64,000 nt of DNA. Source: Gemmatimonadota bacterium (GTDB lineage Bacteria; Gemmatimonadota; Gemmatimonadetes; Longimicrobiales; Gaopeijiaceae). Positions within the stretch are counted from its first letter, which is position 1; the number at the start of each line of letters is the position of its first letter. The DNA lies in the NCBI GenBank assembly GCA_013002885.1, contig JABDLS010000086.1, positions 1 to 64,000 of the forward strand, read 5' to 3'. The position numbers and the translations under genes were made by a program. A model generated the notes under the pieces. That model did not search any database and was not told the DNA's origin. It saw only the letters and a list, made by a program, of their open reading frames with translations. Below, piece after piece: positions 39,064 to 42,457 of this stretch.

Positions 39064-39642
39064 TCACAGGAGGTGGGCCACCAGTTGGCTCAAGGCGTGG
39101 ATCCGGCCCGACTGGGGGCTGCGGAAGGCAAGGCCGCGCCCCACCAGGGAGTCGAGCGCGGCGCGTTGGTCGCCCGTGAACAAGCCCTCGACTTCCTCGG
39201 GTTCCACGGTGCCCCTCTCCTCCAGCGTTCGCCAGGCCGAGCCCTCGTCCCCGGAATGGACGCCCACGAGCTCGAAGCGGTCCGGCTCGGTCTCGAGGAC
39301 GGCGGCGAGGCCCTGTCGAGCGAGCACCACCTCGATCTGGTCGCGATGGGGCTCGTGCACACCCCGGAAGACGAAAAAGGCGTCCCGGGCCTCGTCGGCG
39401 AGGAACTGTTGGAGAAGCTTGGCCACGACTTCGTCGGCGCATGAGAAGTCGATAATGACGACTTCGGAAAAGTCGATGAGCGACAGCGAAAGGGTGCCGG
39501 CCCCGTGCAGTTGGGTCTCGATAGCCATCCGCACCGCTCGGCCCGTGGGCCTCGTCACGAGACTCGAGTACAGCGACGTGACGCTCTTCTGAAGGACCTC
39601 ACCGATGTCGATGGCGATGGGGTCGATAGGTCTCTCACTCAT
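39064..39642 (-). CDS. STAS-like (DUF4325-type) protein
   Basis: The 192-residue protein has SLSLIDFSEVVIIDFSCADEVVAKLL, which matches the strand-helix pattern of STAS-like DUF4325 domains (a hydrophobic DFS strand followed by SxxDE). The C-terminal ~45 residues (EEVEGLFTGDQRAALDSLVGRGLAF) look like a small helical module. Its start overlaps the upstream STAS-ATPase gene as ATGA. STAS and ATPase pairs usually act in partner switching, so this is a probable antagonist or target. No sigma factor or PP2C phosphatase lies beside it. Confidence 0.75.
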   Translation of the reverse strand: MSERPIDPIAIDIGEVLQKSVTSLYSSLVTRPTGRAVRMAIETQLHGAGTLSLSLIDFSEVVIIDFSCADEVVAKLLQQFLADEARDAFFVFRGVHEPHRDQIEVVLARQGLAAVLETEPDRFELVGVHSGDEGSAWRTLEERGTVEPEEVEGLFTGDQRAALDSLVGRGLAFRSPQSGRIHALSQLVAHLL

Positions 39643-40526
39643 TCGGCCAGCCTCGCCGGGAGGATGATGCTGATCTGGGATCCCGGCAGAGGGGACATGC
39701 CGTCGACGAGGGGTGGCGTGTCATCCCACTCGGGTACCTGACCGATGCGAGCCGTCCCGCTGCGGATGGTGATGGCGCCGTCCCATCGGCGGACCTGCCT
39801 GCGGATCTGCTGGATCCCCTGTCCTCGCCCGGAGTCCGGAAAGCGGGTGAGACCGTGGAGGAAAGCCGCCTCCAGAGCAGTGGCATCCGCCCACCGGTCA
39901 CCGTAGCGGGCCGAGTGTTCGTCGGTGAGGGAGCCACGGAAGCCGCGCCCGACGTCCATGACGGAAATCACCACGACGTAACGCCCCAGCCGTTTCGTCC
40001 AGTTGTATGCCTGGGCAGCCACCCAACCGGGGGCCTCGGCGTGCTCGATGATGTTCTGACAGACCTCGGAGAGGATCACCGAGAACTGGACCACGGCCGT
40101 CGCCGGGTAGCCGAGCTTGGATGAGAGAATGGCTCCGGCACCGCTCTGGACGCGATCGATGACTTCATGAACGTCCGAGTTGGCAGCGACCGACATGATC
40201 TCCAGAAGAACGTCCGACGGCCCCCCGCCTCCTCGACGGGGCGTGGCCTCGAAGTCGAAGACCTCCCGGGCAGCCGCTTGAAAGCCCATCCGGGCCAGAT
40301 ATCCCCCGACGTCGGCGTTTTCGGGAAGCTGGAGCTTCGGGCGGCCTTCCTGAGCCCGAGCCGCCACCGTCCCTGCCACGAGAAGGGCCAGCATCCCATT
40401 GGGATCGATCCACCTCAGATGCCGAGCGTCGAAGAGCGCACGCTCGCCGACGACCTCGACGACTCCGTCGAGGAATTCGTCGATGGTGCGGTGGTCCAGC
40501 GATCCGGGTACGGGAATGACGTTCAG
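39639..40526 (-). CDS. STAS-HATPase fusion, probable CTG start
   Basis: The ORF track starts this gene at ATG 40394, but the frame is open upstream to the stop at 40551 and encodes VIPVPGSLDHRTIDEFLDGV and FDARHLRWIDPNGM, a STAS-type strand-helix pattern. No ATG, GTG or TTG exists there. The CTG at 40526 overlaps the PfkB stop as CTGA and lies just behind AGGAGG. This gives 295 residues. The C-terminal part is a GHKL ATPase like anti-sigma kinases: SEVCQNIIEHA (N box, Asn158), VMDVGRGF (G1) and GRGQGIQQIRR (G2). It is probably a serine kinase or nucleotide switch paired with the next gene. Confidence 0.8.
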   Translation of the reverse strand: MNVIPVPGSLDHRTIDEFLDGVVEVVGERALFDARHLRWIDPNGMLALLVAGTVAARAQEGRPKLQLPENADVGGYLARMGFQAAAREVFDFEATPRRGGGGPSDVLLEIMSVAANSDVHEVIDRVQSGAGAILSSKLGYPATAVVQFSVILSEVCQNIIEHAEAPGWVAAQAYNWTKRLGRYVVVISVMDVGRGFRGSLTDEHSARYGDRWADATALEAAFLHGLTRFPDSGRGQGIQQIRRQVRRWDGAITIRSGTARIGQVPEWDDTPPLVDGMSPLPGSQISIILPARLAE

Positions 40527-41470
40527 GAGTCCTCCTCTCGTGTCTGTGCTTCACCAACGGCCGCCGTCACCTCCCGAAGATGTCGGATCAGACCCGACAC
40601 TCCGCTGCGCTCCGCCGCCGCCGCGGAAACCCGGCTCGCTTTTCGGGCGGCATCGGGTTCACCGTCGCCAGCCAGCAGCCTGCAGCACATGACACCTGCC
40701 CAGACGTCTCCACACCCTGTCGGGTCCGGCTCGTCCACCGGGTAACTCGGAATCTCGTGCTTGACGACGCTCCCGTCATCTCGACGTGACCAGCAAACGG
40801 CTCCGTCGACCCCCTGGGTACACGCGAGGAGCGACGGCCCGGCGGCGAGCACCCGACGCGCCATTGCTTCGACCGGCGTCTCTCCTCGGAGAAGGTCCAT
40901 CTCGTCCGCGTTCAGCTGGACGGTGTCGAAGCACGTCATCCAGCGGGGCCACGAGGGCAGTCGCCGCGGCTCGCGGACCCCGTCCTGGCCGTTCCCGAGA
41001 AAGAGGGAGTGGAGGTCGGCGTAGACCGGACCTCCAAAGGCGCTCCGCACCATGGAGGCGGCGTCCACGGTGAGTTCGTGACCCGAGATAAAGTTCACGA
41101 GGAGTGCGTCGCACTCGGCGGCCGAGGCAGCCAGGTCACCGCCGTCCCATCCCCCGACGCCACCTGTCAGGCGCTCCGTTCGCCGGGCGTCGTCATGGTA
41201 GCGGAGCTCCACTCGATTGTTCGGCGCCGGCACCTCCACGATGCCTCCCGTGTCGAAGCCCGCTGCGATGAGCCAATCCTCGACGACGTCCAGGGCGTCC
41301 TCGCCCACCCGGGCGAGTGGGAGGAGGTGCCACTCCGGCGGCAGTACCGCCGCGGCCCCGGCCAGGGTGTAAGCCAAGCCTCCCAATTCATCCGCCGACT
41401 CCGACCGGCCGCGTAGCCCGACGATGCGGTCCACGACGAAGGTCCCGACGACGCCGAGGACGCGTTCCAC
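40523..41470 (-). CDS. PfkB-family carbohydrate kinase
   Basis: The 315-residue ribokinase-like protein has the C-terminal signature DEPDPTGCGDVWAGVMCCRLL (anion hole and catalytic Asp in TGCGD). At the N-terminus the double-Gly region is degenerate (ELGGLAYTLAGAAAVL). It phosphorylates a sugar or nucleoside that cannot be named from sequence. The start is GTG 41470, 9 bases after the ROK stop. The stop is shared with the CTG start of the STAS-ATPase gene. Confidence 0.87.
   Translation of the reverse strand: MERVLGVVGTFVVDRIVGLRGRSESADELGGLAYTLAGAAAVLPPEWHLLPLARVGEDALDVVEDWLIAAGFDTGGIVEVPAPNNRVELRYHDDARRTERLTGGVGGWDGGDLAASAAECDALLVNFISGHELTVDAASMVRSAFGGPVYADLHSLFLGNGQDGVREPRRLPSWPRWMTCFDTVQLNADEMDLLRGETPVEAMARRVLAAGPSLLACTQGVDGAVCWSRRDDGSVVKHEIPSYPVDEPDPTGCGDVWAGVMCCRLLAGDGEPDAARKASRVSAAAAERSGVSGLIRHLREVTAAVGEAQTREEDS
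40524..40536 (-). promoter_or_regulatory. Strong ribosome-binding site and CTG start in a CTGA overlap
   Basis: Reading the minus strand, AGAGGAGG is followed by ACTC and then CTGA. The AGGAGG core is a perfect match to the anti-Shine-Dalgarno. CTG doubles as the start while TGA ends the PfkB gene. The 4-base spacing is short. An ATT nine bases further on is the only other plausible start with this RBS. Confidence 0.65.
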
Positions 41471-41479
41471 AACCCGTCG

Positions 41480-42457
41480 TCAGTGGGACGAGTCGGCGAG
41501 GAAGATCCCTGCCGCGCCGATCACGCCTGCGGTCTGCGGAAGGGCGCCAGCCACGATCTCGCACGCGTTCACGGCGCTGGCGAACGCCCGCTTCCGGACC
41601 TCGCTGCGGAGGGGATCGAAGAGGTGTCGATCGGCCCGGGTCACCCCCCCGACGACCACCACCATCTCCGGGTTGAAGAGGTTCACCAAATTGGCGATAC
41701 CCACCCCGAGGTACCGTGCCGTCTCTCGGATCACCTCGCCGGCGTAGCGATCTCCGCGGGTGAGGGCCTCGTGGACCGTCGCCGCCGTGATTCTGTCGAG
41801 ATCTCCAGCAACGAGTTCGGACAAGATCGACTCCGCTCCGGCGTCGAGTCCTTCTCGGGCCCGGAGAGCGATGTTCGGTCCAGAAGCGTAGGCCTCCAGG
41901 CAGCCGAGGTTACCGCATCCGCATTGCCGCCCATCCACCTGGATCGTCATGTGACCGATCTCTCCAGCCGACCCGCTGGCGCCCCTGACAAGGTGCCCCT
42001 CGGTGATGAGTCCACCTCCGATGCCGGTCCCGAGGGTCACCCCCACCACGGAGGTCAGGCCTCGGGCCGCCCCCTGCCACCACTCGCCGTACGTGGCACA
42101 GTTGGCGTCGTTGTCGAGCGACGCAGGTAGACCTACCGCTTCGCCCACCCGACCACGGATGGGATAGCCGTCCCACCCGAGGTTGGGCGTGGACAGGATG
42201 ATGCCCTGGTCCAGGTCGAGGGGTCCAGGACAACCGATGCCCACGCCTACGAAGTCGTCCAAACCACCCTCCGGTGAAGCCTCGGCGATCACCTCTTCGG
42301 CCATGGACTCGATATCGTTCACCGACGCTTCGGCTCCCCGCTCAGGCTGCGTCGGCTGCGTGCGAAGGGCCCCGATCTCCCCACCCGCGTAGGGCACAGC
42401 GGCGACGACCAGATTCGTGCCGCCGATATCGACGCCGAGGACCCACCGGTCGCTCAC
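41480..42457 (-). CDS. ROK-family sugar kinase (glucokinase-like)
   Basis: The 325-residue protein has the phosphate loop [39 protein letters not shown] and the ROK zinc motif [25 protein letters not shown]. It is probably a cytoplasmic glucokinase, though N-acetylmannosamine and other sugars are possible in this family. ROK repressors have an N-terminal helix-turn-helix, which is absent here. GTG overlaps the lepA stop as GTGA. Confidence 0.9.

Follow-up and report, generated by a model that had tools for sequence, protein, structure and literature searches.

The gene for a STAS-GHKL ATPase on the minus strand of a Gemmatimonadota contig starts at a CTG codon (position 40526), a placement that is close to certain from its reading frame and homologs. 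Comparison across the genus supports the view that this CTG took the place of a GTG, ATG or TTG start and that selection has preserved it since. Its genus-wide fixation and the apparent selection on it are the main point of the analysis, and were absent from the initial annotation of the window (the whole 64,000-nucleotide stretch of DNA that was analysed). The full account, which joins the CTG start and the STAS-GHKL product to a selected codon, a weak IF3-sensitive initiation that sets dosage, and a kinase acting on Ser67 of a neighbouring protein, is considered reasonably probable. The features are collected in Table 1.

Table 1. Coordinates of the STAS-GHKL gene, its start region, its domains and its neighbours.
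Feature	Positions	Strand	Details and evidence
STAS-GHKL ATPase gene	39639..40526	-	295 aa; true start CTG (close to certain); homologs in 58/59 relatives, 123 homolog starts, structure
CTG start codon	40524..40526	-	Present in 13/14 genus genomes
ATG (Met45), automated caller's choice	40392..40394	-	Inside helix 2 of the STAS fold
Shine-Dalgarno core GAGG	40534..40537	-	Spaced 7 nt from CTG; no variation in 14/14 genus members
TGA stop of the pfkB-family gene	40523..40525	-	Overlaps CTG as CTGA; overlap in 10/13 CTG genomes
STAS domain, residues 1-100	40227..40526	-	STAS_2 18/28, DSSP, Foldseek 1vc1, residue table
GHKL ATPase domain, residues 104-290	39657..40217	-	PF02518/PF13581 in 28/28, residue invariance, CheA P4/CckA CA matches
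Downstream gene, predicted STAS fold and C-terminal winged helix	39064..39642	-	ATGA overlap; invariant Ser67 at classical STAS phosphosite
Upstream pfkB-family kinase gene, same cluster	40523..41470	-	PF00294, neighbour conservation
ROK-family kinase gene, next upstream	41480..42457	-	PF00480, conserved gene order

The CTG (40526-40524) is directly preceded on the minus strand by ..GAGGAGGACTC, and the product read from it has 295 residues, beginning (M)NVIPVPGSLDHR. Upstream of the CTG the reading frame stays open for just 8 codons, and the next in-frame ATG, GTG or TTG is ATG 40394 at codon 45. The initial annotation had stated that no such codon precedes this ATG, which was found to be true for the whole open frame above codon 45. 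Because the start is a very weak codon, automated gene callers lose the first 44 amino acids. The overlap with the previous stop was also recovered as CTGA, with the TGA of the pfkB-family gene at 40525-40523. As for the 13 other NTGA overlaps that had been counted in the window, the pattern is real, and a recount with the analysis's own gene model gave 16 (ATG, GTG or TTG); one further CTGA occurs in the window and is not necessarily a start. The AGGAGG reported before the CTG is present with a 4-nt spacer (40536-40531); it is this species' extension of a GAGG, and it is the GAGG, at an exact spacing of 7 nt before the start codon, that all 14 genus members share.

A full or partial homolog was found in 58 of the 59 related genomes searched, and nearly all full-length homologs align from residue 1-3 of the CTG-started protein. 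In 123 distinct homologs, drawn from three of the order's families, the start is the same codon or lies one codon upstream. Another 20, which belong to the class but to different families, have ATG, GTG or TTG starts within 3 codons of the same place. A start at the Met45 position was seen in 0 of the 123 order homologs and in none of the 20 others. Within the genus, codons 2-44 have a pN/pS of 0.25, with a pS of 0.64. The homolog alignment, the common start site and this pN/pS together indicate that the upstream 44 codons encode conserved protein. The initial annotation would have given up its CTG for homologs beginning at Met45 or for unconserved upstream codons; no homolog examined begins there, and the codons are conserved. 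It had also looked to relatives for canonical starts in front of the same N-terminus, and outside the genus these are indeed ATG, GTG or TTG, except in one CTG relative. An assembly error behind the CTG was rejected, since 13 separate genomes have it.

Pfam STAS_2 (PF13466) matches residues ~4-60 of the homologs, in 18 of 28 members at E<=0.05, and the HATPase families PF02518/PF13581 match all 28. The window protein itself falls below the curated cut-offs, with 19.5 bits for PF13581 (cut-off 27.4), 22.3 for PF02518 (26.4) and 13.4 for the RsbA model (210). A sequence search of the PDB returned no relative, and Rfam gave no match in the region. The AlphaFold model, built with 28 sequences, has a pLDDT of 83.9 and a pTM of 0.87, with block means of 93, 90, 79, 95 and 95 over residues 1-50 and about 90 for the upstream segment. 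The N-terminal order predicted by DSSP is beta-alpha-beta-alpha, and Foldseek matched CheA P4 domains, CckA ATPase (CA) domains and the RsbV homolog TM1442 (1vc1). The prediction of residues 1-100 that had been suggested earlier gave a STAS fold, mostly at pLDDT >=90 over the first 50 residues; the earlier assignment of the upstream codons to a STAS N-terminus is borne out by this fold, the STAS_2 matches and 1vc1. With a start at Met45 the predicted fold would be without beta1, alpha1, the strand that follows them and the alpha2 cap.

The ATPase motifs comprise an N box (E154/N158/H162), a G1 box (D191-x-G-x-G) and a G2 box (G233-R-G-x-G), of which E154, N158, D191, G193, G195, G235 and G237 are invariant in 123/123 homologs. 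The start of helix 2 is the phosphoserine site in classical STAS proteins (D-S-S-G), and there the ATPase's own STAS domain has D41-P-N-G. Position 42 is Pro in all 123, and position 43 is mostly N, Y or V, with Ser in 6 of the 123; on these aligned residues, the domain is without a phosphorylatable residue at the classical site in nearly all homologs. Of 297 genomes sampled across the phylum, 280 have the gene, usually in single copy, so the fusion is ordinary in Gemmatimonadota, the start codon being its one unusual feature. The hidden STAS-GHKL fusion of the initial annotation is therefore real, and callers would truncate it, but the fusion is normal across the class and what is hidden is the start codon, in this genus.

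The start codon of the genus is CTG in 13 of 14 genomes and TTG in the remaining one (G008), whose use of TTG means that CTG is not indispensable. In G008 (locus L019) no pfkB homolog was detected immediately before the gene. Outside the genus CTG was found only in G137, all other relatives having ATG, GTG or TTG, and outgroup start codons vary freely among A, G and T at the first base. The tree needs at least three start-codon changes, which would fit two gains and one loss. In G137 (locus L063, sister genus) the same gene carries CTG, and GTG relatives stand between it and the CTG genus on the tree; by this placement, its CTG is an independent gain.

At each of the 14 other invariant leucine columns the codons are mixed and often CTC-rich. 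Across the 13 CTG genomes, 1 of 66 four-fold third positions is invariant and none is invariant for C, while the start C is invariant. Here the start is set against neutral sites that share its tree; the genomes are related, and the result is not a formal probability. In three species (L015-L017) the upstream gene terminates at a TAA 17-32 nt away from a CTG that is still present, so the overlap is not what keeps it. The upstream open frame holds no canonical start in L001, L003, L009 and L011-L017; in L002, L004 and L007 there are canonical codons upstream, but these are distant and inside pfkB. No stronger Shine-Dalgarno was found in the CTG genes than in close GTG/ATG relatives, and as the strength is equal there is no compensatory signature.

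A genome-wide habit of CTG starts was sought with a codon model retrained on 304 kb of this genome, with which 241 complete coding ORFs were scored. When its first ATG, GTG or TTG is taken as the start, the STAS-GHKL ORF loses 19.5 bits of coding signal, the next values being 8.4 and 6.6, and it alone among the 241 loses more than 9 bits in a scan that is blind to CTG starts preceded by a spurious canonical codon. No Shine-Dalgarno-linked excess of CTG over background was seen genome-wide, in a weak test in which the ATG/GTG/TTG excess is also small. Direct inspection of CTGA overlaps added one candidate, an inositol-monophosphatase/HisN-like gene (L162; G000 contig C9, 3786-4568, minus strand) that has as its only nearby start a CTG in such an overlap. 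Its relatives have ATG, GTG or TTG starts within a few codons, so that CTG is not conserved there, and L162 is a candidate for a species-specific CTG start.

The initiator-type methionine tRNA has the canonical GGG/CCC anticodon stem and unpaired 1-72. An AUU or AUC start of infC underlies the autoregulation of IF3. In this genus ATC stands at the expected start of infC in 13 of the 13 genomes where the gene was found, including the window's own (L231-L243; own L233), behind a GGAG-type, Shine-Dalgarno-like stretch, and the arrangement appears to be of the classical IF3-autoregulated type. This is as expected if IF3 still screens start codons, and it makes IF3 control of non-canonical starts in the same genomes plausible. 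A second, divergent infC-like gene occurs in two genus genomes (L244, G000:C70:35230-35724, and G005:C174:361-855), in L244 apparently with ATC near its start.

The conserved gene order is ROK, PfkB, STAS-GHKL, STAS-winged-helix and a Cys/Met PLP enzyme. The protein encoded downstream is conserved in the class, belongs to no Pfam family and carries an invariant D-F-S-C-A-D motif at the STAS phosphosite, with its invariant Ser67 at the start of helix 2. Its STAS and winged-helix assignment comes from weak Foldseek matches (best E about 0.01) with high probability. The conserved order, the ATGA overlap and the neighbour's Ser67 as against the ATPase's own D-P-N-G suggest that the ATPase phosphorylates its neighbour; from this anatomy, Ser67 is probably its target. 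The immediate neighbourhood contains no sigma factor gene and gives no support to partner switching that involves one.

Among the NTG start codons, four in all, CUG is the rarest; it accounts for about 0.024% of starts in bacteria and has 0.86% of the efficiency of AUG in E. coli (PMC11497404). Switches to CUG are very rare in reconstructions, with 4 among some 69,000 ancestral start codons (PMC5622118). In Streptomyces, sigR starts with GTC in 32 of 34 species, with a conserved AGGAGGTG, and is repressed by IF3; changing GTC to a canonical codon led to SigR overproduction and a deregulated regulon (PMC5472188). The present gene resembles sigR in being a regulatory gene with a genus-wide non-canonical start (here 13/14), a strong conserved Shine-Dalgarno, an overlapping partner gene downstream and no canonical start. 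Unlike sigR, it uses CTG instead of GTC and encodes a STAS-GHKL ATPase instead of a sigma factor, and the IF3 repression known for sigR is a predicted one here. It shares with infC, apparently ATC-started in the same genus, a conserved non-canonical start behind a strong Shine-Dalgarno, but it is not a translation factor, and CUG differs from AUG at the first base whereas AUU/AUC of infC differ at the third.

Like the GHKL serine kinases RsbW and SpoIIAB, the ATPase has N, G1 and G2 boxes and its gene adjoins that of a STAS protein; unlike them, it is fused to a STAS domain of its own without the phosphoserine, and has no adjacent sigma gene. Start-codon variants of Listeria rsbW alter SigB activity (PMC13068326), so that the start codon is known to tune dosage there, although these variants are rare mutants and not fixed. 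With SpoIIAA, RsbV, RsbS and MlaB the protein shares the STAS fold by Pfam STAS_2 and Foldseek, but its STAS domain has D-P-N-G in place of D-S-S-G, and the downstream partner differs from them in carrying a winged helix. The open-access literature searched yielded no description of a bacterial clade with a fixed CTG start. Regulatory genes with a conserved non-canonical start are already represented by infC and sigR, and the STAS-GHKL gene with its clade-fixed CTG is a new addition to them.

In the mechanism proposed, the strong Shine-Dalgarno at its fixed spacing would load the 30S subunit on the CTG, as would, in most species, ribosomes that reinitiate after terminating at the overlapping pfkB stop. 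The C-U mismatch with the initiator anticodon would make initiation inefficient and most likely sensitive to IF3. Such a weak start would hold the ATPase at a low set level, perhaps together with its translationally coupled STAS-winged-helix neighbour, much as the GTC of Streptomyces sigR sets a sigma/anti-sigma ratio. By this analogy, the CTG may have a dosage role for a scarce kinase of the partner-switching type. That the genus-fixed CUG sets, in an IF3-sensitive way, the dosage of a phylum-core STAS-GHKL kinase and of its coupled STAS-winged-helix partner is put forward tentatively, at somewhat less than even confidence. Held with the same reserve, the dosage-setter reading includes the point that AUG, GUG and UUG each lie one mutation from CUG, yet CUG would have been maintained.

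The CTG might instead be a true start that is selectively neutral, with the Shine-Dalgarno and reinitiation sufficing and the codon persisting by descent. The strong Shine-Dalgarno in all members, the CTGA overlap in 10 of the 13 CTG genomes and the separate origin in G137 would fit this, as would L162, which suggests that CTG may be merely tolerated in the same genome. However, synonymous sites are saturated (pS about 0.64) and a single four-fold site in 66 is invariant, yet so is the start C; the three species without overlap keep CTG, and A, G and T vary freely at outgroup starts. Neutral persistence is rated as rather unlikely. If CTG starts were common in the genus through a relaxed initiation machinery, a second candidate within about 304 kb would be in keeping. 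This seems improbable given the canonical anticodon stem of the initiator-type tRNA, an infC that keeps ATC, which in known cases depends on IF3 screening, and a loss of more than 9 bits in the STAS-GHKL ORF only.

Other readings move the start. Initiation at ATT codon 4 draws on the presence of ATT, ATC or ATA there in 13 of 14 genus members, but codon 4 is CTC in one member and lies about 16 nt from the conserved Shine-Dalgarno. Entry from the upstream pfkB gene by readthrough or frameshift conflicts with in-frame stops 3-19 codons upstream in many members and with the TAA 17-32 nt away in L015-L017. Both were rejected on these grounds and are very improbable. Translation from Met45, with the upstream codons a relic or an accidental open frame, has in its favour that ATG 40394 is the first ATG, GTG or TTG in this species. 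It is hardly credible in view of the homolog starts, the purifying selection on the upstream codons and the loss of beta1, alpha1, the next strand and the alpha2 cap, and was likewise rejected.

With CTG taken as the start, a gene present in most Gemmatimonadota genomes would lose part of a domain to standard gene callers. A CTG kept by a clade while synonymous positions are saturated is evidence from nature that selection can favour a poor start. A CTG gene and an ATC-start infC in the same genomes would allow IF3-controlled dosage to be tested directly in organisms beyond the established models.
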